Below the pieces are notes generated by a model. It searched no databases, was not told the DNA's origin, and worked only from the letters and a program-made list of their open reading frames with translations. The translations under genes and the position numbers were made by a program. DNA of 64,000 nt. It comes from Pseudophaeomoniella oleicola. Taxonomy: Eukaryota; Ascomycota; Eurotiomycetes; Phaeomoniellales; Phaeomoniellaceae. The stretch spans positions 310,001 through 374,000 of the forward strand of contig QWDQ01000004.1 in assembly GCA_003868215.1 (NCBI GenBank). The letters run 5' to 3'. Below are positions 7,052 through 45,006 of the stretch, one piece after another (position 1 is the first letter of the stretch; each line of letters starts with the position of its first letter).

Positions 7052-7389
7052 ATGTCTACCTATTACACCTCCAAACCGTCTACATCTTCTGAGCGGAGAG
7101 GCAAGGCTACTCAAACTATAGATGACCGCTACATCGATCCAGGGAAATTGAAATCCATGCTCACTATACTATTTCCAGACGAACAACCTCGAACACAGGT
7201 AGGTCGAGATCGCGTTGGTCACAAATGATCATCTCAACTCATCGCATATACAGTGGAGATCCAACAGATGGATCATCACCGCCCCCCGACGGCTCCAACC
7301 GGTTAGTCCCGTCAACGTCTCTCCCGTCCCTATCAAACAAGTACTGACCCCACGTCGACCAGGACGAAATCGACTGTTTGAGGGTTTGA
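7052..7389 (+). CDS. Small three-exon protein with YIDPGKL motif, paralogue of 288-807
   Basis: This is a predicted 73-aa protein from exons 7052-7198, 7254-7301 and 7363-7389. All three junctions are phase 0, with donors GTAGGT and GTTAGT and acceptors ACAG and CCAG. Exon 1 ends with the block YIDPGKLKSMLTILF, exon 2 (48 nt) encodes WRSNRWIITAPRRLQP, and exon 3 encodes DEIDCLRV and a stop. The N-terminus is Ser/Thr/Lys-rich and looks disordered. The same exon plan and motif order occur at 288-807, which is what makes this a gene and not a chance frame. I recall small fungal proteins with this pattern but no established function. The product is presumably intracellular, since no signal sequence is visible. 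Confidence 0.7.
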
Positions 7390-9050
7390 GAGCAATCATC
7401 CTTCAAGTTGCCTCGTGTGACGAGTCGAGCACCATTCTTGCTTCTTCCATCGATGGCATCGGTGGCTGACGTAATTTTCGCAACGGTTTCTTAGTTTCCG
7501 ACCGATGATCACATGTCTCACGATTCTTTATTTGACTGAAGGTTATCCTCAAGTTTGTCATTTTAGATAGCGCAGTCCTTCCTTACAAGCTTTCTGTTCG
7601 GCCTATTCTACGGCTCATACACGCCTTTCCCCATCTGACCCTTCTGAAGGGTTACTCTTCCAGATATCGTGAGCATACCATTTATGACTCTTTATCTTGG
7701 GTCAGAAGTGCAATCATTCTTTGCCTTTGGATTGGATGTCTTACTGGTCTTGTGATACCCCTTTCGATCAATACCTGAGCGTAACTGATGCGAGCACCTT
7801 ACATTATACCATACCATTCCTCTATTTCAGATCAGAGGATCCAATAGTCTGGCTGCCGCCATCCCAGTATGCCCAGCATTATGGTTTTGTCTTGCTCGCC
7901 AAAGCCCCCGGCTTCTCCTTTAGTCTCACAAGACCGTCGTTCGCCAATCCAAAAAGGTTGATTTCCATCCCAGAGGCATTCGTAAGACACTGCAAATTGA
8001 CGGCACATATCTGGGCTTACTGTGCGTATTGATGTACAGTTCCGATGGTGCCGGCAATACAACTTCGGCCGTGAACTTGCGGGCTAGACCAGGTGATCTA
8101 CTCCGAAAAGCCACAGATTGCCAGACCGTTTACAGGGTGGGAGTGGTCCAATTACCTGGGAAAACGACATCAAACTTCAAGGCGACCCAATCTGGTAATA
8201 GCGGAATTAGTTGGCGGCAGAAGGTAGATTATTCGAAGTGGTCATAGCAAGACAAGACAACAGAAGAGTCAGGCAATGGCAATGATGAGAAGAACGGCAA
8301 AAGCAGGAGCATGATGACTCCGTCGCGGACCTGTACGCCGCGTTCCTTGGTATACGCCGACATCTTCCCCTAATGCCTCTTCGAAGGTCACTGTGAAAAC
8401 TGAAATCATGAGTCACAGTGCCTGCCCAAAACAGCCCGCTGCCTAGGTTCCATCCATCCATCCCCTGGGCCATGATGTGGCACGCCCTGCTCATATCGAC
8501 ACGGTCCCCAGGTTGAATCCTGTATTGCTCTTTAATCGCACAGAGACCTGAACCGAGCCTCGGGCATCAACATCACCCCGTAGATCGTACGAGATCAGTG
8601 GTGGTTTGGTCATGTCTACTATTCGACATCGATGCGAATGAAAGGATTCACCCTGCGTTTATGTCCTAACCCTTCATGTAGTGTAGATTCAAACCGGAAT
8701 CACAATCATTTCAAGTCCGCTGTCGAAGTGGGTCACTCCGGGAACGAACCATCCGGTCTGCCGTTCCCCAATATCAAATTCCTTCACTTCGCCGTCTTCC
8801 TTGTCGTGCTATTCAAGCATTTCGTATACACACATGATACACACATTGGGAGTTCGGCATCTGTATCCCTACGTCCTGCCAACTCCATTCGAGCACCTCT
8901 CATACAACGTACACATGTTAGACTCCGTATCTATTATGCATATCCCCCATCTCCCGACACAACATTATTCTTATCAATCAAGGACCCATTATGAACAGCC
9001 ACGTAACCTATTCTCATTTTCGTTTTCTCATCATAAACACATAGCATATA
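7390..9050. other. Gene-poor stretch with unassigned open fragments
   Basis: I could not build a gene here. A plus-strand frame from about 7540 to 7780 without an ATG reads as a hydrophobic segment (AIILCLWIGCLTGLVIPLS), and other open fragments follow at 7830-8250 with plausible GTAACT...CAG intron borders near 7790-7830. On the minus strand, 8260-8400 also has a hydrophobic tail. This may be a spliced membrane-protein gene I cannot resolve, or a decayed one. The final 600 bp look like non-coding AT-rich sequence. Confidence 0.25.
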
Positions 9051-9522: not shown

Positions 9523-11236
9523 TCAAAAGAAGTTATCGAGCCAACTTCCATCATCACCACCACCACTACCGCCACCGTCAGCATCACCACCACCTTGATT
9601 CCAAGGATCTTGATGATTTCCCCACAGATCTTCGCCTTCTTGGGTCTGGCCTTGGGGCTCGGGTGGTGCGTAAGGGTTCTGTTGTGCTCCTTCTGCAACA
9701 TCAGCAGGAGCTCCGTCCTCGCCGTGTGGATTCCGATCGCGTAGCATTTCGTAGCCGGCCATGGTCCCTGCACCGGCCATGGCGCCTTCCCCTGCACCGC
9801 TGGCTCCGCCGGCGACTCTGCCCAGGGCGCCACCGGCCCCGGAAGCTGCTTCGCTGCCACCGACGACGGCACCGGTCGCTTCGGCTGCACCGATGGATTC
9901 TGCGCCGGCGGCTCCAGCAGCTCCAGCTCCAGCAGCTTCACCGCCACCCATCCACATTGGGATGGGCATGATGCCGCCGCTGCCGCTGTGGCGGGAGAAG
10001 TAGTCGAAATCGACGGACACGGCTGTCGCCAACATAACCGCACGCTGATCCAATGACATACCCGGAACCGAAGGAACGATTTCGTTTGAACGGCCGGTTT
10101 GCGAAACGAGATGTTTGTTCTGGGCTTCTTCTGTCAACCCTGCCGAGTCCATGCGAAGCGCATATACACCAGTATCTGTGAACAATTCTCTTCCCCAGCC
10201 GGCAAAGTTACGATTGACACTTCCGATTAACCGTTTCTCGCTGTCTAACAAGGAGAAATCCCATGATAGGAAGGGCTCGTCCACTGCGGCGAACTGCATG
10301 AATCTACCTCCACCTGGTTGCTTGTAGACCTGCATCTGTTGCGATGAAGAAAGGTGCTTATCGTTAACGAGTAGCTGTGCAATCGGATGCTGATCTTCGG
10401 GTACGTCGTTGTAGAGGAATAAATTGTACTTTCTCCGTAATGGGGCCCAGACTTGTTGCGCTTCACCTATGATCCTCATATCTGAAATCGGTAGTGTCGA
10501 TACCTGCGGGTTCATTGGATCTACTCCAGGGACAAGAGCCCCGGGGGCGTTATGCGTCGGCGCTTGCTGATATGAAGAATCCCCTACCGGATCATAAACC
10601 CCGATCTTCGAATTGATCCAACTGAATGGACGATGAAACTGTGCGCTCGGTCAGCTGCAATGCACCGCATAAAACTTCCTAACAGTGCCTTACCCTTAAA
10701 ACCTCCCTCGCCGACCGATCGAAAATATGCGTCATGAACGCCCTATGCGTCCGGAACACCTGGCGTGACAACGACTTCCCTATCCCGCCATCATGCTCCG
10801 CCATATACCCGACATGATTCCCCTGCGCATCCAGTATCACGTACCGATTCGCCTGCTCGAACCCCAGGAACACGTTCATCATCTCCAGCTGCCGCTGAAC
10901 CACGAGCCCCGAGTTCGCGAGCAGCGAAGCCGCCGGGTGCCGTTCCTTGAGCACGGCGTTGGGGTCTTCGGGGATGTGTACGGGTGCGAGCAGCGTGTTT
11001 TCGGATGGGTCGGTGTTCTTGAGCGCTTCGGATAGCGAGGGTTGGGTGGCGGCGGCGGCTGGTTCGGCATCTGGAGGATGTTGATGGCTTGGATCTCGTG
11101 CGGCGGACTGGTGAGAGTCTACGGGTTCTCGGGGTCGTGGGATCGGAGGCCGTTGTCTTGATGATGGACGTAGACGAGATGCATATCTTACACCGCAGAT
11201 CGTGCGCGTAGGTGGTCTTAGTCGTGAGAGTAGCAT
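9523..11236 (-). CDS. Phospholipid scramblase family protein, mitochondrial type
   Basis: This is a predicted 552-aa protein from two exons, 11236-10694 and 10638-9523, joined across a 55-bp phase-0 intron (donor GTAAGG, acceptor ACAG). The N-terminus is rich in Arg and Ser with no acidic residues in the first 30, consistent with a mitochondrial targeting signal. The scramblase fold spans about residues 80-345 and includes LLANSGLVVQRQLEMMNVF, the NRYVILDAQGNHVGYMAE segment, LSWDFSLLDSEKRLIGSVNRNF and a hydrophobic segment at MLATAVSVDFDYFSRHSG. The yeast relative is Aim25. The C-terminal 200 residues are low complexity: a Gly/Ala tract, then an acidic Gly/Asp/Trp tail ending WLDNFF. Family members are thought to move or bind phospholipids in mitochondria; direct scrambling by fungal members is not settled. 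Confidence 0.88.
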
Positions 11237-11585
11237 ATTTGCCTTCTCTATTTACTAAGGAAAGAAAAACAGTACAAACAGACTCGCCGGCTGATTGTTG
11301 TTGTCGTTGATTATAAAAAATCGCTAGGCAAAAACATTCATTGTTCAACGGAAGGCGATGTTCGATGACGTTCGCAGGTCATTTCAGGGTCTCACAGTAA
11401 GAGCAGTTCCACCTCGGCCGAACTCGATAGATACCTCAGTGATATATCATTAAGTAGCTCGTTCACTGCTTCGAAAATCAATCTTAAATTTATAATTATA
11501 TTTATATTAATGTTTTAAGCTGTATACACACTTATATATGAGACGCTCTCGTCATGATATTCTCATTCAACCTGGTGATCGAGTC
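11237..11585. other. Intergenic, no gene seen
   Basis: This AT-rich spacer between the scramblase start and the ABC-A transporter stop, both minus strand, should hold the scramblase promoter and the ABC-A 3' UTR. A strongly AT-rich run near 11485-11520 could be the polyadenylation region. Confidence 0.4.
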
Positions 11586-14500
11586 TCAATCACTCCTCTG
11601 GTCCTCACTCTCGACCTGGAACTTCCCAACAATGGTCAAGAAAACTTGATCAAGCGTCGTCTGACTGACACTGTAGTACTCGAAGCCTACTTCTTCTTTA
11701 CTCCGTTCCAGTGCCGAAAACAAAGCAGCTATCCTTATCCTATTACCACTGCTGGCCACCTTATTGTCGTGAGCCTTGGATTCGGACGTCGTTGGATCGT
11801 CTATTGGGACAGAGAAGCGAACTTGGCCGTGATACATCTTGCTTTCAACTATCGCGGTTGGGAAGTTGTGCAAGATCCATTGACGGATTCTGTCCATGTC
11901 TTCATTGGAAGTGTGCGGAGCATTTCTGTGGATGATATGGACATGATAGGCATTCCCGTGTTTTCTTCGGAGAGAATCTGTTGTCCCCAGGGCAAGCATA
12001 CGTCCCGCCATGATACCTGCTCGATTTGCCAGTGCGTCGGCTTCCTCCATTGAGTGAGTAGTCAAGACCAGCGATCTGCCAGGGACAACGGATGCCAGCG
12101 TTCGCCACATGACTCGTTTGCTGGCAGCGTCCATTCCGCTTGATGGCTCGTCTAGAAGTAAGACACTTGGGTTGCCCATGAGCGCGATGCCAAGTGATAA
12201 TTTCCGCTTATTGCCACCAGACAATGCACCGGCCATGCGAGAAGCGTAGGGCTGAAGACCGACAGCTTTCATAACTTCACCCACGTTATGCGCCGGATCG
12301 GGAACACCCCTGATTCTAGCGTAAAAGTCTAGATGTTCTTGTACGGTCATCGTGTCCATCGCATCGAACTGTGGACAAACGCCAAGATGTTGACGAGCTT
12401 GCGCACGTTGCTTGACGATGGAGACGTTCTCTACCAGTATGTCCCCGCCCCTTCTGCTTGGCCGTATGTCGCCGCGGATCATGGAGATTATAGTGCTCTT
12501 ACCGGCACCGTTCGGTCCAAGCAAGGCAAAGACCTCACCACGACCGACACCGAACGATACGTCATCCACCGCGAGATTACTCTTGAATTGCTTAGTCAAA
12601 TGGATGACTCTTAATCCATCGGATGATGAATTTACTCTTGCGATCTCATCACTGACTTCATTTTCTCGAACCTTCTCCTCAGAATCCTCCTCCCTCGATG
12701 TTTTACGCAAAACCTTGAAAAGGGGCCCCCCATCAAGCCAGAGGAGAGCAAGAAATAGTAGGATCGATTGCACAATAAGATATACGATGGGTCCGCCATA
12801 CATTTTCATTGCACCAGGATAGGTCGCAAATGATCGGTCTCGACAGTCAATCGAAAACACGTTGAGGGCAACAAACATTGTTCGCGTTAAACTCCCAATT
12901 GGCGAAATGAGCGAGATAGCGAAATGTGCAACGTTGATGTAATAGTCAATCTTGTTCGTCGGTGCGTACGTCTGGATGGAGAGATATGCAATGAAGTACA
13001 GTAGAAACATGACCGCTTGTCCAGCAGCAGCAAACGCAAACGCTGCAAGTTGAGACCCCGAAAAGAGTGAGATGAGGTAAGCCAAAAGCGTCGATGCAAG
13101 GCCATAAAGGAAGAGTACGACAAATACATATCCGACGTTGTACCAAACATCCGAGACTGCCCGGAAGATGATCGTGGCAAGAGCACTCGAAAGCAGTACA
13201 ATCAAGAAGTCGAATGTGACATATGCTGACCACAAGGGAAGTGAGCGTACACCGTTGCTGTAATGGAGAGCTCGTATATTTCGGAGGCGTTCGATAGTCG
13301 GATACAGAGCGAAAAAAGCCGGATAGACCGAGCATGCCAATCCAAAATACACGATGAGCTGAAGTGCTTTCCCAGCGTCCGGAGCCCAGGGGATATCAAA
13401 AGACTGATATTGACTGCTGATGGACATGTTCGTCAGGACAACATCCATGAAATTCTGTGTTATGGTTGCTAGTGATATATCACCGTTTCCTTTCCAGGCG
13501 AAAACCGGAGACGAGCCAGCAAAGAATCCTCCGGGTGTCACATTCGCATAGTTATTGTCAATATACTGATTGAATTCATCTACCGTATCGACAAATCGCA
13601 ATGACTCAAGAAGGCCGGTATAGTTAGCAGATCCTGATTCTGCTCCTCCGCCGCCCCGCAAGGTGGACGCGAATCTTTGTAGAGCAATATCGGTGATGGC
13701 ACTTCGTGGTCCGACAACGAGATCAAGTTCGATCTCAGAGACAAGCGAGTAGGCGGTGGAGATCGTTATCGTATCTGGGATGCTACACCCAAGCCGACGA
13801 AAATGCTTGAGGAATAGCGTTACCAATCCAGCTGCGATCACTGGTATAAGGAAAGCTGCTGCATATGGTAGGTAATTTCTTCGAAGTACGATGGCCCGTT
13901 TTCGGAAGAGGACTACCGCCTGCTTGAACATACCGATTTGCTGACCGGACATCAGTTCCGGAGTGGCACCCCCCGGAGATTTTACAGACGTATTGACGGT
14001 GATCGCACCCTTACCGCCTATCTCCTCGGAGTTGTCGGATAGCGAAGAGGCAGCCGAGATGTCGGACTTTACTTCCTCGGCTACCTTGAGGAAGACATCC
14101 TCTATTGTCGGCCCGCTGACTTGGTAGTCGTGGATGCTCCGTTGCTCTAGTGTCTCGACGAATTTCGAGGCCTCCAATGAGTCCTTAAGCTTGTAAATCA
14201 TCCTATCGTACTGCTTTTCAGAAGGCACACCTTCGCTGTCAAAATTCTGCGGGGCTGAGTTGTTGTACACGTGTACTCGATATCCAGTACCTGCATGGTG
14301 CTTCAGTTCTACAGAGGTACCGGATGCCCGTAACGCTCCCTTCGATAGAATCACGATGTAGTCAGACAGAAGATCCGCCTCATCGAGGAAATGCGTTGTA
14401 AGGATGATCGACCGTGAACCCCGTTCAGCAAGAAGGATATCCCATATCTTCCGCCGCGACAGCGGATCGATTCCACTTGAGACTTCATCAACCGCGCAGA

Positions 14501-16432
14501 CATTTGAGCCTCCAGTGAACATCATGGCAAGTTGGAGCTTCCTCTTCTGACCACCAGATAATGTTTTCGATTTTGCCTTCAGCTTGTGAGAGATGTCACA
14601 TGCAGATATCAATGCTCTTATTTTGTGCAGTTCGTCAACCGCTTTAGAACATTTGACATGATTCATGATTCGAACGTGCTCCTCAACGGTCAGCTCATCC
14701 CACATGACGTTCTTCTGTGGACAGAGCCCGAAACCGCCGGACTGGGTGGCGTAGTTGAGGTGAATAGCTCCATTGGTGATCTTGGTGAGACCAGCTATGG
14801 CATCCAATGTCGTGGATTTTCCGCTTCCATTTGCTCCCAGGAGCACCATAATCTGGCCCTTTAGTGCTTCAAAGGACAGGTCGTTTACAGCTAGGACAGG
14901 CTCCCTCTTAGATCGAAACATATGGCCGAACTTTTCAACAAACCAGTTTGGCCTGTACTCTTTGGAAAACCCTCTAACTGATACTGCAGTTTTGGAATCG
15001 TCTACTTGAGTAGCAGTGCGACTGGACGAGCTTGTTCCATGTAGTGTTCGCTCTACTAGGGCTCCCAGGAGCGGGAACGCGAAGATCTGTACAATGAAAA
15101 ACACCCACAACGCAATACCTGGAAATGTAGAGGGGTTCCTGGGTGCAGCTTTGACGAGATCAGCTGCCATATTCTGTCTTTCCCACCTTGCGAGAAGGAG
15201 GATGAAGAAAGTGTAGTTCATTGGTGGGAACAGAAGCGATAAGATAGCGACAGCTCCAGTGCCAGTCTCATGAATAACCTGTGCTAAAACTGCAAGCAGT
15301 AGACTGATGATGACTGAAATGATACCACTGAGTTGTGCTTTTCGAAAGAAAGCTGCCCCAAATATAGACATTGATGAAAGTGCAAGTCCAGCCAAGATAT
15401 GGAAAACGAGCAGTATCCCAATCGATGTCTGCGTGAAGACCCCCAGCTTCAAGATTACGGCCATAATGATCCAAGACGGACCATATATAATATCAAATGC
15501 GAGGTGGTTTGCGAGGATCCGTGCCATTTGAGGCTGCCAACGGGCTCGGTTGGGCATCATGCAATCCAGCAACTGGGCCATGCCAGATTCTCTTTCGGAA
15601 GCTATAAGGCCAGTCAACTGGTATGTTACACCGCACATCCCGATGAAGAATGCGACACCAAGTATGTCGATTATTCCGCCCATATATTTAACTCGAATTT
15701 GTCTCTGCCTTTGTGCCTCTGAGACCGACGTATATGGATATTGGTGGATCTCGGAAGCGAGCGCACTCTGATCGACACTTGAGTCTGACCGGGCAATAGC
15801 CATATCAATAGCATGTTGAAAAGGTAATGCATACACCTGTACGTCATTCCTATCAGAGTGAGCCAATATCTTCTCCTCTAAAGCCCCGTCAGCTCGTAAT
15901 GTGTAATTCCAAATACCGCCTGGCCCTTCGGTCGGTGACGAGAAGAAGACGGCTGCTGCAATGCACGAGGACGTCCCTCGTAACGAACTCCGACATAGAT
16001 CAACCAGCTCATCCTCCTGGGAGAGGACTCGAACATCAGTCCCGGCATCTCGTGCTGGCTGTGCAATCTTTTCGATCACGTCTTCGATATCTCCTCCAGT
16101 GAAGCCATTATCCACGAACACAAGCTTATCCCGGCCCCCAGCCACAATATTAAGAGCGCTCGTCAACGACCGAATTGGAGTGGGATGACCGATCCCATAC
16201 ACTGAAGGTGGCACGAATAGGTTCCGCGCATAGGCACTTTCAAACATTGTCAGAAAAGAAACTTTCCTCAAACTTTTGAGTGGGAGTATCGCGGAGGTTG
16301 AACTCACAGGAAAGCCATGAAGACCACCGGCAACACAAATGCTCGAATCGGTGTCGATAACCAATGTCGAACAAGAGCAATCAGTAAATTCTTGACCATC
16401 AAGGTCCATATTTGTCTAGCAAAAAGAGCCAT
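11586..16432 (-). CDS. Full-size ABC-A subfamily transporter
   Basis: This is a predicted 1591-aa protein from two exons, 16432-16308 and 16236-11586. The 71-bp intron (GTGAGT...AAAG) lies inside the first conserved block and rebuilds VFMAFLAYARNLFVPPS, the usual start of fungal ABCA proteins. The order is first membrane helix (about 25-45), large luminal loop, six-helix bundle, NBD1 (Walker A GANGSGKST near 509, signature LSGGQKRKL, Walker B with VDEVSSGID), second membrane half with its own luminal loop, then NBD2 (Walker A GPNGAGKST near 1282, signature LSGGNKRKL, Walker B LLLDEPSSGMD). Both sites keep their key residues, so both should hydrolyse ATP. ABCA proteins move lipids across membranes in animals; fungal substrates are mostly unknown. 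Length and domain count are complete. Confidence 0.93.
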
Positions 16433-36920: not shown

Positions 36921-38048
36921 ATGATGGCAGCATCAGTGCGGACTATAAGGATTGGCTACGTGCCTGGTAAGTGTGTGATCTGATTATTGGCAAAGGCTCT
37001 CGAGACATTGTCTATGCATTGTCATCATTCGAATGCAATCTAGTCAGAGCTACATGGTAGTAATAACCAAGCTGACGAACTGTCAACAGAACATTATCTC
37101 CTGCCTTTACACCTTTCTCTACGCCATGTACCTTCCAGCATCAAGTTCGACCTCGTACCCTTCCCATCCGGCACCGGCCATATGATAACATCGCTTCGTG
37201 CCCCTCCATCTTCTTCTGAACGTATAGATCTTGCAATTGGCTTGACCGAAGGTTGGGTTGCTGGACTTCTTCCCCCAAGCCTTCCTTCTGGGGATAGGAA
37301 AGGGTACAACATCGTCGGGCAGTGGGTACAAAATCCGCTGCGATGGGCCATCGTCACAGGGAAGGATCGTGCCAATATCACGTCCGTTGACGACCTCGGT
37401 CAGAGGATACAGGGCGACAAGAAGCTGAAAGTCGGTGTTAGTAGGATGGGCAGTGGCAGCCATGTCATGGCGAGCGTGCTCGCTCAACAGGAGGGTTGGG
37501 ATCAAAAGGGATTGGAGTTCGTGAAATGTGGTCCGTTCGCCGATCTGAGATCTGCCGTGAACGTGGCCGACGAAGATCAGGCCGACGGGAACGGCGCCGA
37601 TTTCTTCATGTGGGAGCATTTCACTACGAAACCGTACTTTCACCAGGAGCCTGGCGAGGAGAGTGGGAAAGTCGTACTGCAGAGACTGGGTGAGATATAC
37701 ACGCCTTGGCCCTCTTGGTGCGTTGTTGCAAGTGAAGAAACGTTCCCGAACCCAGCAAGCGATGAAACCCTAGACGAGGTATTCAAAGTACTGGACAAGG
37801 GCATACAAACCTTTGAGGACGACAGAGAACATGGGATAACGTTGCTGGGAACCGGCGAGCTCGGATGCCACTATACGGAAGAGGATGCTAGGGAATGGTT
37901 AAAAAAGGCAGAGTTCCAGACCAAAGGCGTCAAGGGTGTGGATAGGAAAATGATCGAGGGCGTCGTCGACGTGCTGAATACGGCAGGGGTTGTCCAAGTG
38001 GACACGAAGAGTAAAGAGGTCCAAGATATCCTTGTGTTAGAATCGTGA
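36921..38048 (+). CDS. Periplasmic-binding-protein-like protein, Ca3427/NMT1-like fold
   Basis: This is a predicted 334-aa protein from exons 36921-36966 and 37090-38048, with a 123-bp intron (GTAAGT...ACAG). Splicing yields RIGYVPEHYLLPLHLS, matching the start of the PBP2 Ca3427-like group known from Candida albicans. The group has the type-2 periplasmic-binding fold and is related to ABC solute-binding and thiamin-precursor (THI5/NMT1) proteins. Further blocks are DLAIGLTEGWVAGL and KVGVSRMGSGSHVMASVLA, which line the binding cleft in relatives. No signal peptide or anchor is seen, so it is presumably cytosolic, binding a small ligand or acting enzymatically. It is convergent with the hydantoinase gene, 59 bp away, suggesting a cluster role such as ligand sensing. 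That is inference. Confidence 0.8.
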
Positions 38049-38107
38049 GGATAGTATATCGATAAGACATATATGTCAAGATCTTCATATACGTCGGAGT
38101 CATCAAC

Positions 38108-39935
38108 CTATCCTACTTTCATCCAAAGCCCCCTCTCCCCGCTCTTCATGCCCACAGGAACAACTTCCTCGCCGGCTCCCCCGTCCGGTAATCCCACCCT
38201 TCCGACCACAACCTCTCCTTTCTTCCTCTTCAAGTACTCTCCACCTCCAACCTTGCCCACGATCCCCTTTTCGACTCCCTCGGAACCTCCGACATCCCGA
38301 TCGAAGGCCACCTTGCCCCTGAGGAGGACGTAACGCGGCCAATTGCCGACCTGCACGCCCTCGAAGGGGGTATAATCGATCGCATGGTGCAAGATGTCGT
38401 TCGTGATCGTGGTGCGCGCACGCGGGTGGTTCGAAGGGTACCAGATCACGAGATCGGCGTCGAGGCCGGGGGCGATGCTGCCCTTGCGATCCGAGAGACC
38501 ATATAGCTTCGCGGGGGTCGTCGAGGTCAGGGCGACGAATTTGGGCAGCGAGATCGATGCGTTGAGGCCGAGGTCGGGTGATGTCAGGGTCGGGGTCGTC
38601 GCGGCGGAGAACAGGAGTGGGAGACGAGTTTCCAGACCGGGGAGGCCGTTGGGGATCGTGTTGAAGGTCGGTGGTTGGCCGGTCGCGGAGGAGAGGGCGA
38701 AAGGTCGCATTTTGCCGGCTGGATCAGAGAAAGTACTCGGCGCGTGGTCGGAAGAGATGACATTGATGGTAGAGTTGTTGATGTATGTCCACAGCGCGGA
38801 GAGGTCGAGCGGGCTGTGGCGAAGCGGTGGGGCGCAGACGTTCCGAGCTCCGTGCCATAGCTCCTCGTCATCATGCGTACAGTGACTGTGCGAGCTGTCA
38901 TGGTCCAGAGCAGTGGGACCAAGCGCTGCAGAGAGTAGATAGAGGTAGTGGGGACAGGTCTCGGCGTGGATCGGCAGGAGATTCTTTTGCGATTTCCGAA
39001 CGTGATTGATCGCTGGTGGAGAGGACATATGGACAAGGAGAATCGGCGTTGAAGTGAGAGTCGACAGGGAAATGGCACGGTACGTCGCTTCGGTCTCCGC
39101 CAATTGAGGGCGTGCGATGGCATGGTAACCTGGTGTGTGGTGAGAATTCGCTAGAAGACGTTTGGTGATCCTGAGGAAGAGAGCCATATCTCGTCGTTAG
39201 TTTGGAGTGGTCTCAGCTAGATACAGGGACGACAGTGGAAGATCATGACGAAGCAACATATGCAATAACTGGATAAATCGGCAATTGGCAAGGACATACA
39301 TATCGATCATATCGTTATTCTCAGCATGGATCATGGTCGTCATTCCCAACTCTCTCGTCTTCATCATTACATCCAACAGATTCCCATCGTTCAATTTCAA
39401 GGGATCGTATGTCATATAAAGCTTGACGCTGGTGATCCCCTCCTTCTCTATCATCACGGGTAATTCATCCAGCACTTTCGCCGAAGGATTTGTCAGGATC
39501 AGATGGAAGCCGTAATCCACGTAGCTCTGACCGCGGCTTCTTCGGTGGTACTCTTCTACGACAGGAAACAGGGATTCGTCTGAACGTTTTTGGGAAGCAA
39601 AAGGAAGGACTGTAGTGGTCCCGCCGGCGAGGGCAGAACGTGTTCCGGTAAGGAATCCGTCGCCAGTGGGAGCGTTGTCTTGGGCTAAATGTACATGGCT
39701 GTCTACGCCACCAGGGGTCACATATGCCCCCTCGGCGTCGATGACTTGGGTAGAAGAGCCCACGGGAAGCTCGGAGGCTATACAAGAGAACTTTCCGTCC
39801 TTGATACCGATGGAAAGAGCAGATGGAAGAATCTCCGCCGCGGTAACCTAATGAGATTGTTTAGCTCTGATTGATATACAAGATCCTTGAGATACGCACG
39901 ATCGTTGCATTCTTGATTACCAAGTCAAAGTCCAT
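38108..39935 (-). CDS. Dihydropyrimidinase / D-hydantoinase
   Basis: This is a predicted 548-aa cyclic amidohydrolase from exons 39935-39900, 39847-39300 and 39170-38108; the introns are 52 bp (GTGCGT...TTAG) and 129 bp (GTATGT...TCAG). All metal-site residues are visible: His63 and His65 in GGVDSHVHLAQ, Lys154 in SVKLYMTYD (the carbamylated bridging lysine), His186 in MIHAENND, His242 in LLVHMSS and Asp336 in VISSDHAPST. The order and spacing are those of dihydropyrimidinases and hydantoinases; allantoinases and dihydroorotases differ around the lysine. The reaction is reversible ring opening of dihydropyrimidines or 5-substituted hydantoins to N-carbamoyl amino acids. With a D-carbamoylase and a racemase nearby, hydantoins are the more likely substrate. 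The tail after about 500 is Gly/Val-rich. Confidence 0.92.
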
Positions 39936-39962
39936 GGTGGAAGATCCAGCACTTTCCGGCGC

Positions 39963-40229
39963 TTACTGGGTCTTTCTCTCCTGCTCTACTACTTCTTGAT
40001 TTGTATTGGGAACTCCTGGCTGCTCTCCACCCCACGATAACGAGATGAATAACAGGACTGCGGACAGAAGAGTGAAGGCAAGAATGACGGGGCCTGTGAG
40101 CTCGTCGCCTGTCTTATCGATAGGTAACTTCTCAGACAGAAAATCAGCCACGCGGTGAGCGAAAGTTAGCTGACTTCTGATCATTCTAAAGACGCCGGTA
40201 TTGGCATTTTCAGCCATGAGTGCCTCCAT
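39963..40229 (-). CDS. Small single-pass membrane protein, function unknown
   Basis: This is an 88-aa frame with an ATG at 40229. Residues about 48-65 (VILAFTLLSAVLLFISLSW) form one hydrophobic helix; the N-terminal half is amphipathic and the C-terminal tail is polar. No signal peptide is seen, so a tail-anchored or single-spanning topology is likely. Its stop lies only 27 bp before the hydantoinase start on the same strand, which leaves no room for a separate promoter. It is either read on a shared transcript or forms part of a long 5' leader. I recognise no family. Confidence 0.5.
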   Translation of the reverse strand: MEALMAENANTGVFRMIRSQLTFAHRVADFLSEKLPIDKTGDELTGPVILAFTLLSAVLLFISLSWGGEQPGVPNTNQEVVEQERKTQ

Positions 40230-40879
40230 GATAATGATGTGTTGGCTTCTGATAATACGAAGGGAATGTCCGATGATGGAGAGAAAGAAGCTGCAGATGA
40301 TTCGCGGTGGGTATGGGAATCTTGATTAGAATGGTCAAAGAATAACGTGATGGGCAATGGAAGGAGAATAAGACACGGCTTAAGGCAACGTCGCTATTAT
40401 TAATTACTTGATTGTGAGATGTTATCGTACTACGTCGTGCATCGAGGCGAGCTCAGATCGTTAATACCTTATCTTTCCATGTTCGGAGCTAAGCTCGTCT
40501 TGGATTCTGTTGACATCGACGCCTCATCGCACAACTCCGCTGGTCTACTACGCCGTCTACTACACAGTCTGTAATACGTAGTATGAGCACCGCAGGTCGC
40601 TAACGAAGAGAGACATTTGGTCCAGCTGCCCGAAAGTCAAGTTCAGTGGAGTGTTGAACACCTCAGAAACTTCATCACTATCGGAAGACCGGTGGGTATT
40701 GCACGATCTAGTGGCTTTGTATGTGTGTCTTTAGTGAGTATCATGGCTGTCCTAAGATATATCGTGTAAAAGCAGATATGTCTAGGGAAACCTGTCTTTC
40801 TTCTCAATTAATCCCTTTACAAATGGTTCATTCGTAGTATTTGTATTTTGAAGACTGCTTTTCAAGAGTGACAGACAAG
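40230..40879. promoter_or_regulatory. Divergent promoter region inside the cluster
   Basis: This 650-bp region separates the 88-aa/hydantoinase pair (minus) from the racemase (plus). It contains near-palindromes of the ACTACGT/ATACGTAGTAT type at 40430-40440 and 40572-40583. A Zn2Cys6 regulator would usually bind paired CGG triplets; single CGG/CCG triplets are present but no clear pair stood out. Confidence 0.45.
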
Positions 40880-41686
40880 ATGCCCTTCACGGACGCTTGT
40901 ACAAACCCTTCTCCTTTGCGTCAGATCTCAATTCTTCTCATCAATCCAAATTCTTCAACATTCATGACTGAAGCATGCATCCGGATGGCAGTGGGATACT
41001 TGCCTTCGAACGTCACCCTCACCGGCTTCACAGCTCCTCTTCCTGGTCCCTCGGCCATCGAGAGCTCACTGGACGCCATTCTCAGCGCAGAAGCATGTAT
41101 ACGTGCCCTAGGTTCAGACTCTCACACGAAGTCTTTCGATGCAATGCTGGTGGCCTGCTTCAGCAAACACCCCTTGATAGAAGCCCTGAGGGAGGAGTAC
41201 TCTGTTCCCGTGATCGGAATCATGGAGGCAGCAATATATTCCGCGCGAATGCTGGGGGGCAGATTCGGCATCATCGCCACCGGCGAGCGGAGTAAATTCA
41301 TGCAAGAAGACAGCGTTAGGGCATACGGCGTGGAAGGATATGACGTGGGAAGCGAGGCCACAGGTTTGGGTGTGCTTGAACTGGAGACGAAGCCACGATC
41401 AGAAGTTCTTATGAAAGTTGGGGAGACTGCAAAGACTCTCGTCAACAAGGGGGCAGATTGTATCCTCCTTGGTTGTGCAGGCATGACTGATATGGTCGAA
41501 GCTTGCGAGCAAGCTGTTGGGTATCACGAAACCTCTAAAGATAGAATCGTTAATGTAATTGATGGAGTGGTAGTAGGAGTGCAACTTTTGATTTCGCTCG
41601 TGACGGCAAATTTTGGTACAGCAAAAAGAGGTATCTATAGAAGCGCGAAACAGAGCAGGGACGCGAGGGGACAGGATTGGCTCTGA
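40880..41686 (+). CDS. Asp/Glu/hydantoin racemase family protein
   Basis: This is a 268-aa intronless gene. The paired catalytic cysteines of the family are present: Cys93 in MLVACFSKHPLIEALRE and Cys199 in CILLGCAGMTDM. The N-terminal motif ILLINPNSST is the usual family start. Relatives are bacterial hydantoin racemases (HyuE, HyuA type) and yeast Dcg1, an allantoin-regulated gene of unknown activity. The reaction would be racemisation of 5-monosubstituted hydantoins by two-base proton transfer. The position between a hydantoinase and a D-carbamoylase favours hydantoin over free aspartate or glutamate. ATG 40880 is the first in frame. The gene is convergent with the P450, 75 bp apart. Confidence 0.87.
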   Translation: MPFTDACTNPSPLRQISILLINPNSSTFMTEACIRMAVGYLPSNVTLTGFTAPLPGPSAIESSLDAILSAEACIRALGSDSHTKSFDAMLVACFSKHPLIEALREEYSVPVIGIMEAAIYSARMLGGRFGIIATGERSKFMQEDSVRAYGVEGYDVGSEATGLGVLELETKPRSEVLMKVGETAKTLVNKGADCILLGCAGMTDMVEACEQAVGYHETSKDRIVNVIDGVVVGVQLLISLVTANFGTAKRGIYRSAKQSRDARGQDWL

Positions 41687-41761
41687 GGACATACAGGATG
41701 CTAACCCTCGCCGAAGCCGGCCATCCATCTCGCTGTACGAATAATACATCCCCTGCAACTT

Positions 41762-43306
41762 TTACTTTCTACCTTCCTCCCAAATCAAATCGATCCTCTC
41801 TCCAATAACTTTGCTGTTGAACCATTCAATGATGGGTATGCGTCCCTCAGTGGAGAACTTCTCGTTGAACGGCCTGCTGCCTTTGAGCGAGCCTGCTCTG
41901 ACCATTCCTGCGGTAGCAACAAAGAGCTCCACGGTTGCCAAGTTCCTAGCTATACATTGCCTGGCACCTAATCCAAAAGGCATAAAGTCCCTTCTCATAG
42001 CATCTGTCTCTTTACCTTCGTCCCACCTTTCAGGGTCGAATTTGAAGGGAGAAGGGAACACCTTTGGGTTAAAGTGCATCTCTAGTGGCGTGCATGAGAC
42101 TATCGTCCCGGCAGGAAGGAATATCTTGGAGTCAGATGCTCTACTATATTGCGAGCTTCCAGAAGGGACGAAGGTCCATCCGCTAGGAGGCACCACACGT
42201 CCAAAACGAGACGGATTGGCTAAGCTAATCCTCAACGCTTCCCGCACTACGCCGCGGAGGCAAGGCAAAGACTGAAGTTCAATTGGATCTGTCATTGAAG
42301 CGAATTGATCCGATGTCAGTTCTGCTTCGAGCTTTGCAAGGATTTCAGGTGACCGTGATAAATGAAACATGATGGTTGCCAAGTTCATGCCAGAGGAATC
42401 CGTTCCAGCAAACATGAGATCTTTGCACTGAGCAACAGTTTCATGTCGAGTTATCTTTGCTTGCTCGAGAAGCCGTGATGGAAAATTGCCTTTGTAACGC
42501 GAACCCTTCTCACTTTCGGTCTCCGAAACAACATTCTTGATGAAGCTGTCCACTTTGTCTACCGACTCTTCGGCTTCGTGGTCCGCCGACAGCTTCGCTA
42601 GCAACGTCTCCAGTCGGAAGAAAAGCCAAGATGGTAAATAAAAGAAGCGGTTTCCAGCGACGAAGGTATCCACCATTCCTGCTGCAGACAGGGATTTTTC
42701 GTTTAGGCCTCCATAGCTATACTGGAAAAGATATGTCGAGACTGCGTCTGTGGCAAAGCTGCGTGTCAAATTCAGTACGTTGACTGGCTCCCCGGTCTTG
42801 GCATCTTCGCGAAGCCTCGTTGTCAAACGATCCACGCACTCATAGATCTTGTCGCTACCGGCTCGCAGGCTTGCTGCACTGAACAATGGAAGGACGGCTT
42901 TTGCTCTCGGGGCCCTTAGAGCTGGATCAGTTGAGCTAAAGATCGAGGAATGGCCATCAATGTCGAAGTTCCCATAGTAGTTCGCTTTGAGAAAACCACC
43001 TTTTTCCACATAGATGGGGTTCAAAGCAGCTCCGTCGGCAATATCAACATCGTTAGGTCCTATGCGAACCACGGGCCCGTACTTCTCATGGAGTTTCTGT
43101 ACGGTACTGGCTTCGTCACCAATGTAAGTGTGGTAATTGAGCCACGAAGATGATATGCGAGGGAGGATCGGCCCAGGAACATGTGATAATGGATGCAAGT
43201 AGATCCGATAGATGGTGCGGACGACGAGGAGCAGCAATGGGGTGCCTATCGCTGTCAAAAGCATATGTTCGCCGAGGGCCTGCAGAAGATCTGTAAGGAA
43301 GGCCAT
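41762..43306 (-). CDS. Cytochrome P450 monooxygenase
   Basis: This is a 514-aa intronless P450. An N-terminal membrane anchor (about 15-32, LLTAIGTPLLLLVVRTIY) is followed by the proline hinge HPLSHVPGP. The I-helix motif is MFAGTDSSG, the K-helix ExxR is EALR, the PERF-like motif is FDPERW, and the heme loop is FMPFGLGARQCIARNLA with Cys451. All conserved elements are intact, so it should be active at the ER with a P450 reductase. Fungal P450 families cannot be assigned without a search. It sits inside the hydantoin-type cluster, 593 bp head-to-head from the D-carbamoylase, and could oxidise a side chain of the substrate or product. That is inference. Confidence 0.93.
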   Translation of the reverse strand: MAFLTDLLQALGEHMLLTAIGTPLLLLVVRTIYRIYLHPLSHVPGPILPRISSSWLNYHTYIGDEASTVQKLHEKYGPVVRIGPNDVDIADGAALNPIYVEKGGFLKANYYGNFDIDGHSSIFSSTDPALRAPRAKAVLPLFSAASLRAGSDKIYECVDRLTTRLREDAKTGEPVNVLNLTRSFATDAVSTYLFQYSYGGLNEKSLSAAGMVDTFVAGNRFFYLPSWLFFRLETLLAKLSADHEAEESVDKVDSFIKNVVSETESEKGSRYKGNFPSRLLEQAKITRHETVAQCKDLMFAGTDSSGMNLATIMFHLSRSPEILAKLEAELTSDQFASMTDPIELQSLPCLRGVVREALRISLANPSRFGRVVPPSGWTFVPSGSSQYSRASDSKIFLPAGTIVSCTPLEMHFNPKVFPSPFKFDPERWDEGKETDAMRRDFMPFGLGARQCIARNLATVELFVATAGMVRAGSLKGSRPFNEKFSTEGRIPIIEWFNSKVIGERIDLIWEEGRK

Positions 43307-43899
43307 GCTTGCTTAGACTTCCAGAATGAAGGATGTAGACCTTGGAAGAAGCAGGCCAGACCTTTTGTATGCTTCTTTGGACAGGTTTTCCCAAATTTGA
43401 TACACAGTGCGCAATGCTTTGTGACTCCGCTTTCGAGGGTGTATGATGCTCATCTCCAGGGAGAGGCTTCAGTACACCGGATTTGTCCGCTCGCTCTTCT
43501 CCTCGATGAGCCACCAACGAGACCACATCTCTGGCGAAATTCTACAGATGAGGCTTCATACTTCGACGGGCTGGATTCCTTGATGTCGTGTAAATCCGAA
43601 GATCGAGTCTGATGGATTTGTGCGTTACTTGATCTTCCACTCGCAGTCTAGGTATTATATGTCAAGAGCTTCTCAGTGGTTCGGCTGCTTGAATCAAGCA
43701 GATGTAGCATGGACACTCTCCCGTGTCTTATCAATTTAGGTGTATACCCCTCCGATGATCGCACTTCCGATCACTGCGTCCATGTTCTGGATGACTGGCC
43801 TTCGACAAAAGTAATCGTACACTTACAACCTCGTGAGTATAGCATTCGTTGTCTTTGCCCTTAAGTCCAAGTCCTGTAAGCCATCGTATTCACGCCATC
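43307..43899. promoter_or_regulatory. Divergent promoter region, P450 / D-carbamoylase
   Basis: This is a 593-bp gap between outward start codons, likely containing both promoters. A non-ATG open frame on the minus strand (43116-43526) overlaps it and has no protein features. Confidence 0.45.
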
Positions 43900-45006
43900 A
43901 TGCCTCGAAACGTGATCGTAGCGGGAGCCCAGTTAGGCCCTGTCGATGTGACGACCCCCAGGAAGGAAGTCCTTGATCGTATGATCAAGTTGCTCTCTGA
44001 GGCTCACGACAAGGGTGCAAAGCTGGTCCTTTATCCAGAATGCGCTTTTACCACTTTCTTTCCTCGCCACATGATCAATGACTCGAAAGAACTGGAGTCA
44101 TGGTTTGAGCATGATGTCAATGGGGATCCAACACAAGCGCCAAACATGAAGCCATTGTTCGATAAGGCTCGAGAGTATGGGATTGACATCAGTGTTGGTT
44201 ACGCCGAGCACGATACAAGCAGACCAGAAGAGGAACATGTCCACTACAATACTGCAGTGTATTTCTCGGCGACTGCAGGCAAGGTCATTTCAAAGTACCG
44301 CAAGGTCCATTTGCCGGGAACCGTGGAGCCATATACTACCCCGGGTGCAACACAACAACTAGAAAAGAGATATTTCAAACCGGGGAACCTTGGCTTCGAA
44401 GCATTTCGTGCACCAGGACTTCTCCCCAATGCTGCTAAAAAGGCTAAGACAAACGGTGCCACCAACGGAGATGTTCAACAGTCAAACATACCCTCCCATG
44501 AATACGGCACCGGCGATCCGATCGTCGGCACCTTGATATGTAATGATAGGCGATGGGCTGAGGCATGGAGATGTTATGGCCTCCAGGGAGCTGAGATCGT
44601 TTTATGTGGTTACAACACCACAGGCTGGGCACCAGACCTCCTCGGAACCAACAAGAAGATCAAGACCAAGGAGGACGCATACAATGAGGCGCTATTTCAC
44701 AACCAATTGTCCATGCAACATGGCAGCTATACCAACGCTTGCTTCAGCATCGCAGTCGCCAGGTGTGGCATGGACGATGGCATGTATCCACTAATCGGTG
44801 GTAGCTGCATTGTCGACCCGGACGGAGATGTGATCGCAAAGGCGAAGACTATGGACCAGGATGAATTGATTGTCGCCGAGATCGATTTAGAAGATTGCAG
44901 AAGAGGAAAGGGCAAAGTTTTTGCCTTCGAAAGGCACAGAAGGACAGAGGCTTACGGGAGGATTGTAGAACAGACAGGTGTCGTAGAGCCGCCCTTGCTG
45001 GAGTGA
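43900..45006 (+). CDS. N-carbamoyl-D-amino-acid hydrolase (D-carbamoylase)
   Basis: This is a 368-aa intronless member of the nitrilase superfamily. The catalytic triad is visible: Glu47 in LVLYPECAF, Lys135 in KYRKVHLPG and Cys214 in LICNDRRWAEAWR. The ICNDRRW motif is characteristic of bacterial D-carbamoylases such as the Agrobacterium enzyme; beta-ureidopropionases and plain amidases differ around the Cys. Between Lys and Cys there is an extra polar stretch (about residues 173-206, Ala/Lys/Asn-rich), missing from the compact bacterial enzymes. The reaction is N-carbamoyl-D-amino acid + H2O to D-amino acid, CO2 and NH3. It should act directly on the product of the hydantoinase at 38108-39935. 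The ATG at 43900 gives the family start MPRNVIVAGAQLGP. Confidence 0.92.
   Translation: MPRNVIVAGAQLGPVDVTTPRKEVLDRMIKLLSEAHDKGAKLVLYPECAFTTFFPRHMINDSKELESWFEHDVNGDPTQAPNMKPLFDKAREYGIDISVGYAEHDTSRPEEEHVHYNTAVYFSATAGKVISKYRKVHLPGTVEPYTTPGATQQLEKRYFKPGNLGFEAFRAPGLLPNAAKKAKTNGATNGDVQQSNIPSHEYGTGDPIVGTLICNDRRWAEAWRCYGLQGAEIVLCGYNTTGWAPDLLGTNKKIKTKEDAYNEALFHNQLSMQHGSYTNACFSIAVARCGMDDGMYPLIGGSCIVDPDGDVIAKAKTMDQDELIVAEIDLEDCRRGKGKVFAFERHRRTEAYGRIVEQTGVVEPPLLE

Follow-up and report, generated by a model that had tools for sequence, protein, structure and literature searches.

A linked set of hydantoinase, racemase and D-carbamoylase-like genes in Pseudophaeomoniella oleicola: a probable fungal counterpart of the hyu cascade known from bacteria

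Three genes packed into less than 7 kb (38108-45006) of the 26-Mb genome of Pseudophaeomoniella oleicola encode a hydantoinase, a hydantoin/allantoin-type racemase and a D-carbamoylase-like hydrolase, and together they probably form a variant, in fungi, of the hyu cascade known from bacteria. The genes lie in the window, by which we mean the whole 64,000-nucleotide stretch of DNA that was analysed, and the nearest named homologues are those of the grapevine-trunk fungus Phaeomoniella chlamydospora. The original prediction, of a cluster converting hydantoins to D-amino acids, is supported in part: the enzymes belong to the hyu families, and in other fungi they are linked or fused, whereas membership of the neighbouring genes and a D-amino-acid product of one particular kind are not supported.

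In the proposed cascade, the racemase would use a two-cysteine proton transfer to interconvert the L- and D-enantiomers of a 5-substituted hydantoin. The hydantoinase would then open the ring of the D-form to give an N-carbamoyl-D-amino acid, and the carbamoylase-like enzyme would remove the carbamoyl group to leave a D-amino acid, ammonia and CO2. The sequence of these steps, the D-configuration and the use of the pathway in catabolism, to scavenge nitrogen, are inferences.

Results

Gene models and neighbouring genes

The trio and the genes among which it lies are as follows.

36921..38048, plus strand: PBP2_Ca3427-like protein (neighbour); exons 36921-36966 and 37090-38048, one intron, 334 aa; PF22384; PDB 2x7p
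38108..39935, minus strand: hydantoinase (cyclic amidohydrolase); exons 39935-39900, 39847-39300 and 39170-38108, two introns, clean splicing, 548 aa
39963..40229, minus strand: 88-aa ORF (neighbour); one hydrophobic stretch, without a Pfam match
40880..41686, plus strand: hydantoin/allantoin-type racemase; single open frame, 268 aa; PF01177, 174 bits; Cys93 and Cys199
41762..43306, minus strand: cytochrome P450 (neighbour); single open frame, 514 aa; PF00067, 160 bits
43900..45006, plus strand: D-carbamoylase-like carbon-nitrogen hydrolase; single open frame, 368 aa; PF00795, 150 bits; Glu47-Lys135-Cys214

Gene models, Pfam matches and PDB matches agreed on the three predicted enzymes at these positions, and the catalytic residues of all three, which had also been claimed, were located by motif. 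In the hydantoinase (PF01979/PF07969), the binuclear metal ligands and the carboxylated lysine were present at what we take to be the relevant positions, H63, H65, K154, H186, H242 and D336.

The solute-binding-like protein, the small ORF and the P450 noted in the same block are also real, as judged by splicing, Pfam and the open reading frame. The P450 gene sits between the racemase and carbamoylase genes, and the PBP2_Ca3427-like protein is the single match of its kind genome-wide. In the accessible part of the CA3427 paper, the solute-binding-like family is assigned no function and the word 'hydantoin' is absent (PMC3073944). So far these three genes are mere neighbours, and candidate members of the set at most. 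The cluster is flanked on the left by genes matching a class-I Glx-tRNA synthetase, the ribosomal protein L1 family and COG2 (Pfam), and on the right by a PQ-loop protein gene followed by two ORFs without a Pfam match.

A motif that we assumed to represent GATA-type nitrogen control occurred 8 times in the gap 39936-40879, the 88-aa ORF included, against 3.8 expected (p = 0.034, uncorrected). The part 40230-40879 of this gap contained 4 (2.8 expected), and two other regions contained 2 (1.5 expected) and 1 (1.9 expected). The NCS1-type hydantoin transporter family (PF02133) had 31 matches in the genome and none on the window's contig, C47. No D-amino-acid oxidase was identified when PF01266 was scored for 14 of 78 genome candidates, 15 loci were searched for what we presume to be the signature (present in none) and three loci were read as ORFs. 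A plasmid search returned 88 records, every one below 60% identity.

The same trio at bacterial carbamoylase loci

By family, the trio is the complete hyu enzyme set that the original prediction had taken it to be. The best 80 bacterial carbamoylase loci included 24 with a hydantoinase scoring above 200 bits, 36 with a racemase and 20 with both, although at one of these 20 (L046) the racemase scored merely 44 bits. The available text on Bradyrhizobium describes a racemase gene between two hydrolase genes (PMC3546935).

Against the PDB, the window carbamoylase scored 219-234 bits with N-carbamoyl-D-amino-acid hydrolases, compared to 43.6 bits for the next chain and 39.6 bits for a chain labelled beta-ureidopropionase. 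It is the only D-carbamoylase-like protein among ten PF00795 matches in the genome.

Substrate-recognition residues of the carbamoylase and racemase

In the sections available, the D-carbamoylase catalytic triad is given as Glu47, Lys127 and Cys172, and the recognition residues as His129, His144, Arg175, Arg176 and His215 (PMC3546935). The window carbamoylase keeps the triad (E47, K135, C214) and four of the five recognition residues (H137, R217, R218, H267), and has Gln (Q153) in place of His144, for which reason we file it as D-carbamoylase-like. Gln occupied this position in all 239 database matches checked, comprising 120/120 of the fused type described below and 119/119 other listed matches. 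With Gln as the His144 equivalent in the fungal enzymes, no particular kind of D-amino acid is supported as the product. Among 85 bacterial carbamoylases the position was His in 63, Gln in 17 and Asn in 5; His was present in all 20 enzymes from loci with both partner enzymes, and all 17 Gln-type enzymes had Ser at the Thr240 position.

The best PDB matches of the racemase were the allantoin racemase 5lfd and 3qvj, which is named KpAllR (PMC12661438), and in the tree it was sister to a hydantoinase-fused racemase (P0283). A second PF01177 protein elsewhere in the genome is 29% identical. As given in the part of the source available, the pocket of the KpAllR branch consists of Asn/Asp12 (100%), Met17 (67.7%), Thr/Ser118 (84.2%) and Thr119 (55.6%) (PMC12661438). 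Three of these four are kept in the window racemase (N24, M29 and T134); the fourth is A133, and Ala was also found there in 19 of 21 hydantoinase-linked bacterial racemases. At Met17 and Thr119 of allantoin racemase, both kept by the window enzyme, the hydantoinase-linked bacterial racemases have mostly Val and Ile.

These residue changes in two enzymes make a shift to polar or acidic hydantoins plausible. The same three reactions may thus serve a restricted natural substrate, for example the hydantoins of aspartate, glutamate or cysteate, in a dedicated pathway rather than a general hydantoin scavenger; judged from sequence, this alternative is possible but on the unlikely side. The uniform Gln of the fungal carbamoylases, the pairing of Gln with Ser in the bacterial ones and the allantoin-racemase residues of the window racemase all favour it. 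So does a Gluconacetobacter locus (L030), where the gene after those for carbamoylase and racemase encodes an amino-acid racemase above the cut-offs for cysteate racemase (235 vs 190) and amino-acid racemase (185 vs 93). Against this, the arguments are from residues only, the amino-acid racemase was examined at one locus, and neighbours were viewed at three of the 17 Gln-type bacterial loci (L030, L031 and L059).

A 2025 paper regards OpaE as the sole fungal member of PF01177 to be well characterised (PMC12661438), and the accessible portion of another study reports 17 transfers in the family, fungi being the recipients in 15 of them, and a single tested member without an obvious role (PMC5169069). 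Since OpaE acts in oxepinamide biosynthesis, as described in the available text (PMC12661438), the racemase and P450 could likewise tailor a peptide-like product, with the hydrolases as accessories, and the location of the P450 gene between those for the racemase and carbamoylase is consistent with this. However, none of the four pocket positions (N24, M29, A133, T134) is of the type given for OpaE-like enzymes, the Pfam-matched flanking genes are of a housekeeping kind, and the proteins scanned, in the cluster and its near flanks, included no peptide synthetase; two right-flank ORFs lack a Pfam match. On these pocket residues and flanking genes, secondary metabolism was rejected as an improbable main role.

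The hydantoinase in relation to pyrimidine and purine degradation

The window hydantoinase scored below both curated NCBIfam cut-offs, with 493 bits for PRK13404 (cut-off 647) and 380 for the D-hydantoinase family TIGR02033 (cut-off 393). For TIGR02033, the P. chlamydospora protein (P0240, 381) was likewise below the cut-off, and the relatives P0293 (430) and P0283 (424) were above it. The best PDB match of the window hydantoinase was the dihydropyrimidinase 2fty (331 bits), which we take to be the Lachancea kluyveri enzyme. Hydantoinase and dihydropyrimidinase activities overlap, and the locus might belong to pyrimidine degradation, with a fungal dihydropyrimidinase as its hydantoinase and a beta-ureidopropionase as its hydrolase. 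However, a paralogue on the same contig outside the window (C47:290233) matched 2fty better (424 bits) and paired with it in the tree (97/89). In contrast, the window hydantoinase fell in a separate fungal clade of 18 rows (100/100), sister to a two-row clade with the L. kluyveri dihydropyrimidinase, although 2fty has a long branch and its placement is less sure. The hydrolase, for its part, is far closer by PDB score to D-carbamoylases than to the beta-ureidopropionase chain, and we know of no place for a racemase in uracil or thymine breakdown. The carbamoylase scores, the better paralogue and the tree led us to reject pyrimidine degradation as very unlikely; two enzymes that are only a dihydropyrimidinase and a beta-ureidopropionase, a possibility raised with the original prediction, are not what the scores and tree show.

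Equally unlikely is a role in allantoin (purine) breakdown, with an allantoin racemase and an allantoinase-like ring opener. The top PDB matches of the racemase and its three KpAllR pocket residues would fit such a role. However, the window hydantoinase scored only 202 bits with AllB against 493 with PRK13404, a separate allantoinase-like gene is located on contig C33 (best family AllB, 233 bits over one exon) with an allantoicase gene on C102, and we know of no purine step with a D-carbamoylase. Allantoin degradation was rejected on the low AllB score and the presence of the allantoinase-like and allantoicase genes elsewhere. Collectively, the dihydropyrimidinase-like, allantoinase-like and second racemase-family genes outside the cluster make both the pyrimidine and the purine reading weak.

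Linkage and fusion in other fungi

Among 120 listed carbamoylase matches, 16 had a counterpart among 120 listed hydantoinase matches with a longest contig of exactly equal size; two control comparisons gave no such pairs, and there were no duplicates inside each list. The locus tags of the two genes are consecutive in Bathelium, Trypethelium and Claussenomyces, and far apart in some of the 16 pairs. Fusion of carbamoylase and racemase was found in all 120 listed matches of a search that used such a fusion as query (query counted), and fusion of hydantoinase and racemase in one protein, P0283 of Aspergillus steynii. None of 119 fused-type matches was paired with a hydantoinase match by equal longest contig. 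In relatives, the linkage evidence concerns the enzymes in pairs, and the trio side by side is directly observed only in this window. The set is not peculiar to this locus, as its relatives were found across many Pezizomycotina, and two basidiomycetes also carry members.

The absence of synteny, which had been named as an argument against the cluster, is thus not what the sequence data show. No described fungal cluster or fusion of these enzymes was found in the titles and abstract openings of the open-licence papers that the searches listed, an absence that carries little weight. The carbamoylase-racemase fusion is not proof of the three-step order, because the expected product of the racemase is not a direct substrate of the carbamoylase.

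The linkage of the three enzymes is unlikely to be of chance origin. Chance neighbours without a common function would be in keeping with the facts that the DNA of only this genome was read and that fused-type matches share no equal-size contig with hydantoinase matches, but this reading is hardly credible and was rejected for the three enzymes given the linkage in other fungi, the two kinds of fusion and a rough chance of ~3e-6 for both partner families lying within 7 kb of the carbamoylase (uniform placement; one carbamoylase, two PF01177 loci and five hydantoinase-like loci).

Discussion

The variant of the hyu cascade proposed here may extend well beyond this genome. We tentatively suggest, although the odds are somewhat against it, a pathway present across the Pezizomycotina and in two basidiomycetes, often carried by a bifunctional carbamoylase-racemase. 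Its substrate would be a physiological hydantoin, or an N-carbamoyl compound, that bears a polar or acidic side chain, and fungi would thereby have a dedicated route leading from ureido compounds of this sort to D-amino acids or, after racemisation, L-amino acids. If so, a natural function would be found both for one branch of the hydantoinases and for numerous fungal PF01177 racemases whose role is unclear. A fungal trio in a cultivable species, in which genes can be deleted one by one, opens this question to direct test, and the industrial hydantoinase process could draw on the carbamoylase-racemase fusions as candidate enzymes.

Like bacterial hyu clusters, the fungal set draws on these three enzyme families, and its members have the catalytic residues. 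In contrast to those clusters, its genes are on both strands, the hydantoinase has introns, and carbamoylase and racemase are fused in many fungi; the fungal enzymes also form clades apart from the sampled bacteria, with Gln for His144 in the carbamoylase and a different racemase pocket. These two residue differences count against the hyu reading, as do the hydantoinase scores below the NCBIfam cut-offs, the lack of an NCS1-type transporter match on contig C47, the wide spacing of some linked pairs and the fused-type matches that pair with no hydantoinase match. Fungal pyrimidine degradation, as in Lachancea kluyveri, is similar in its homologous hydantoinase (331 bits to 2fty), but the closer match to 2fty is a paralogue outside the window, the hydrolase of the set is from another branch and its racemase is extra. 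With purine/allantoin degradation, and with yeast DCG1, the set has in common a PF01177 racemase whose nearest solved structures are allantoin racemases, whereas elsewhere in the genome there are an allantoinase-like gene, an allantoicase gene and another PF01177 gene. Finally, the window racemase belongs to the same superfamily as the oxepinamide epimerase OpaE and has two catalytic cysteines, but differs from it in pocket residues and gene context.

Gene content of the locus

The 26.1-Mb genome (G000) comprises 112 contigs, and the window occupies positions 310001-374000 of one of them (G000:C47:310001-374000). The block of interest contains the following features:

36921-38048: PBP2_Ca3427-like protein, left of the hydantoinase
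38108-39935, minus strand: hydantoinase, two introns, clean gene model
39963-40229, minus strand: 88-aa ORF between hydantoinase and racemase, with one hydrophobic stretch and without a Pfam family
40880-41686, plus strand: racemase, clean gene model
41762-43306, minus strand: P450, between racemase and carbamoylase
43900-45006, plus strand: carbamoylase, clean gene model

The clean gene models of all three enzymes bear out the original prediction that they lie within 7 kb. The catalytic residues, which it had described as all visible, are indeed present: the metal ligands of the hydantoinase, the cysteine pair of the racemase and the Glu-Lys-Cys triad of the carbamoylase. The block is bordered by genes of housekeeping type, with a Glx-tRNA synthetase, L1 and COG2 on the left and a PQ-loop protein on the right, where two more ORFs gave no Pfam match. 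The PBP-like protein, the 88-aa ORF and the P450, which had been noted in the same block, are present there, but nothing beyond position ties them to the pathway. The PBP-like (Ca3427) family is without known function in PMC3073944, and the only match in the genome was the window's own. No NCS1-type transporter was found on the contig, with 31 matches elsewhere in the genome, and GATA motif counts at the locus gave no convincing sign of nitrogen control.

Identity of the three enzymes

The top solved relative of the hydantoinase was the dihydropyrimidinase 2fty (331 bits) from Lachancea kluyveri, followed by bacterial D-hydantoinases (275 bits). Its best NCBIfam models, PRK13404 (493 bits, cut-off 647) and TIGR02033 (380 bits, cut-off 393), both scored under cut-off, and allantoinase models scored 202-205 bits. 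The racemase had its closest solved counterparts in the allantoin racemase 5lfd (74 bits) and in 3qvj (73 bits), named KpAllR in PMC12661438, with an aspartate racemase at 28 bits. Among solved structures the carbamoylase matched N-carbamoyl-D-amino-acid hydrolases at 219-234 bits, the next chain at 43.6 bits and a chain labelled beta-ureidopropionase at 39.6 bits. Judging by these scores, it is near one known family only, the N-carbamoyl-D-amino-acid hydrolases.

The genome contains a second hydantoinase-type gene, a single open frame ~18 kb left of the window (G000:C47:290233-291654; 7215-8711 of the fetched stretch L020). It lies on the same contig as the cluster, less than 60 kb away. This gene is closest to 2fty (424 bits) and pairs with it in the tree (97/89), in a dihydropyrimidinase clade of two rows only, where the branch of 2fty is marked as long. 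The window hydantoinase and 17 of its best 120 database matches together form another, fungal clade (18 rows; 100/100). Since the second gene is the better match and tree partner of 2fty and the window gene lies in another clade, pyrimidine degradation was rejected as a role. Allantoin degradation was rejected because it is covered by an allantoinase-like gene on contig C33 (best family AllB, 233 bits over one exon) and an allantoicase gene on contig C102. The prediction had named enzymes acting only on dihydrouracil and beta-ureidopropionate as the case against it; the carbamoylase's score to beta-ureidopropionase and the separate 2fty-type gene appear to point away from this. The only other match to the racemase family PF01177 in the genome, on contig C80, was 29% identical to the window racemase. 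PF00795 (carbon-nitrogen hydrolases) had ten matches, one of them a carbamoylase of the window kind (632 bits to the fungal carbamoylase profile; next 30.6).

Linkage in other fungi

Phaeomoniella chlamydospora, an ascomycete of the order Phaeomoniellales (Eurotiomycetes), was the top named match of both carbamoylase (89%) and hydantoinase (80%) among the best 120 relatives listed per search. These two sets of 120 were matched by exactly equal longest-contig size, an indirect indication that both genes share a contig. Sixteen of the 120 carbamoylase matches shared a size with a hydantoinase match. No size was repeated inside any one list, and both controls gave 0 (119 fused carbamoylase-racemase matches versus 120 hydantoinase matches; 120 carbamoylase versus 119 fused matches). 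Consecutive locus tags were found for the pairs of Bathelium mastoideum (M1821_003444/003445), Trypethelium eluteriae (Q9157_004882/004883) and Claussenomyces sp. (M1818_003942/003943). The contigs with the two P. chlamydospora genes are 195,885 bases long; for two more pairs the lengths are 9,614 and 18,259 bases. The sixteen also include distant pairs, with locus-tag gaps of 33 (Cladophialophora chaetospira), 99 (Rhinocladiella similis), 317 (Exophiala bonariae) and 2265 (Elasticomyces elasticus). At the level of enzyme pairs, these results support the synteny in other fungi that had been proposed as a check.

Fused proteins and phylogeny

P0118 from Baudoinia panamericana (Dothideomycetes; 612 aa) has a carbamoylase domain followed by a racemase domain, and is the sole two-domain protein among the best 120 carbamoylase matches listed. 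A search with P0118, which favours fused proteins, gave 736 of 8000 scored candidates at E ≤0.001, and all of the best 120 listed (query included) had both domains. Named hosts among these 120 of 736 include Colletotrichum, Alternaria, Aspergillus and Paecilomyces, as well as two basidiomycetes of the Gloeophyllaceae, Gloeophyllum trabeum and Neolentinus lepideus. Twelve of the 120 are named 'Asp/Glu/hydantoin racemase/predicted amidohydrolase' by JGI. Because the basidiomycete forms are nested among ascomycete ones in the carbamoylase tree, it is possible that they were acquired by transfer. Baudoinia panamericana, Hortaea werneckii, Fulvia fulva and Delphinella strobiligena are represented in the fused list as well as in the hydantoinase list, and no contig size was shared between the two lists (0/119). 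For GLRG_10235, a PF01177 gene of Colletotrichum graminicola that is possibly of the fused type, the log2 changes listed in PMC4782317 from one infection stage to the next are -3.24 and +3.21.

P0283 from Aspergillus steynii (767 aa), a hydantoinase with a C-terminal racemase domain, is the sole racemase-bearing protein among the best 120 hydantoinase matches listed. It could be a merged gene model, in which case the genes would still be adjacent. With fusions of both the P0118 and the P0283 type, the racemase is tied to both partners. In the racemase tree the window racemase is sister to the P0283 domain (99/80) and shares one clade of 11 rows with eight sampled fused racemases (100/99); this clade includes the C80 paralogue, whose very long branch makes its placement unsure. 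In the carbamoylase tree, a split of 100/100 divides the 34 rows from fungi (17 standalone and 17 fused) from a sample of 20 of the 85 bacterial sequences. The standalone forms, the window's included, are a clade of 17 (100/99) and the branching order of the fused forms is unsupported, so the tree does not decide between fusion first and separate genes first, and names no donor.

Proposed cascade

The families, catalytic residues and linkage of the three enzymes were observed. Their most likely mechanism is a three-step cascade, in which the racemase would convert L-hydantoin to D-hydantoin, the hydantoinase would open the ring, and the carbamoylase would remove the carbamoyl group to give a D-amino acid, ammonia and CO2. 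The order and chirality of these reactions are as we infer them, and the cascade may serve nitrogen scavenging.

This kind of system is already known from bacteria. No fungal hydantoinase-racemase-carbamoylase set or fusion was found described in the open-licence papers listed by the literature searches, as judged by titles and abstract openings; the prediction, too, had known of no such fungal cluster. Numerous fungal acquisitions of PF01177 racemases by transfer are described in PMC5169069, where neither 'carbamoyl' nor 'fused' occurs in the main text.

Comparison with bacterial hyu systems

Bacterial and archaeal genomes were scanned with the fungal carbamoylase alignment, and the best 80 of 575 relatives were taken (36-45% identity, all bacterial by title). 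Within up to 10 kb each side, often less on short contigs, a hydantoinase (>200 bits) was found at 24, a racemase (E ≤1e-10) at 36 and both at 20 of the 80 loci; at one of the 20, L046, the racemase match scored 44 bits. The trio is thus in bacterial use, though most of the 80 loci show less than the full set, and by family the fungal enzymes are those of bacterial hyu operons, as predicted. In a Flavimaricola MAG (L098:9315-10001, plus strand) a racemase lies directly upstream of the carbamoylase. Among bacterial matches to the fungal racemase profile it ranks first (141 bits, the rest ≤106), and no hydantoinase was found on that stretch.

The D-carbamoylase triad (Glu47, Lys127, Cys172) and recognition residues (His129, His144, Arg175, Arg176, His215) given in PMC3546935 are all kept in the window carbamoylase except His144, which is Gln153. 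Gln occupied this position in 119 of 119 checked matches among the best 120 of the standalone query and in 120 of 120 fused matches listed, all fungal wherever a name is given. In contrast, all 20 bacterial carbamoylases at two-partner loci have His. Across 85 bacterial carbamoylases from the 80 loci the residue was His in 63, Gln in 17 and Asn in 5. At the window's Thr240 position, all 17 Gln-type bacterial enzymes have Ser and the fungal matches Thr. The Gln-type neighbourhoods inspected were L059, L030 and L031, the last listed only. In L059 (Bradyrhizobium, 10001-15797) the carbamoylase is near an ABC permease, a solute-binding protein, a racemase and a polysaccharide-deacetylase-fold protein weakly resembling the allantoinase PuuE (67 bits, cut-off 425). 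These genes may form a parallel system in which another enzyme opens the ring. In L030 (Gluconacetobacter) a neighbouring amino-acid racemase scores above the cysteate-racemase cut-off.

Among the KpAllR pocket residues as given in PMC12661438, the window racemase keeps Asn12, Met17 and Thr119 and has Ala for Thr118. Fused fungal racemases (best 120 of 736) have Met, Ala and Thr at positions 17, 118 and 119 in 117, 115 and 95 of 120. Hydantoinase-linked bacterial racemases mostly have Val (19/21), Ala (19/21) and Ile (16/21) there. Together, the carbamoylase Gln and the racemase pocket changes suggest that the fungal set prefers substrates different from those of bacterial hyu enzymes, with a side chain that we would guess to be polar or acidic.
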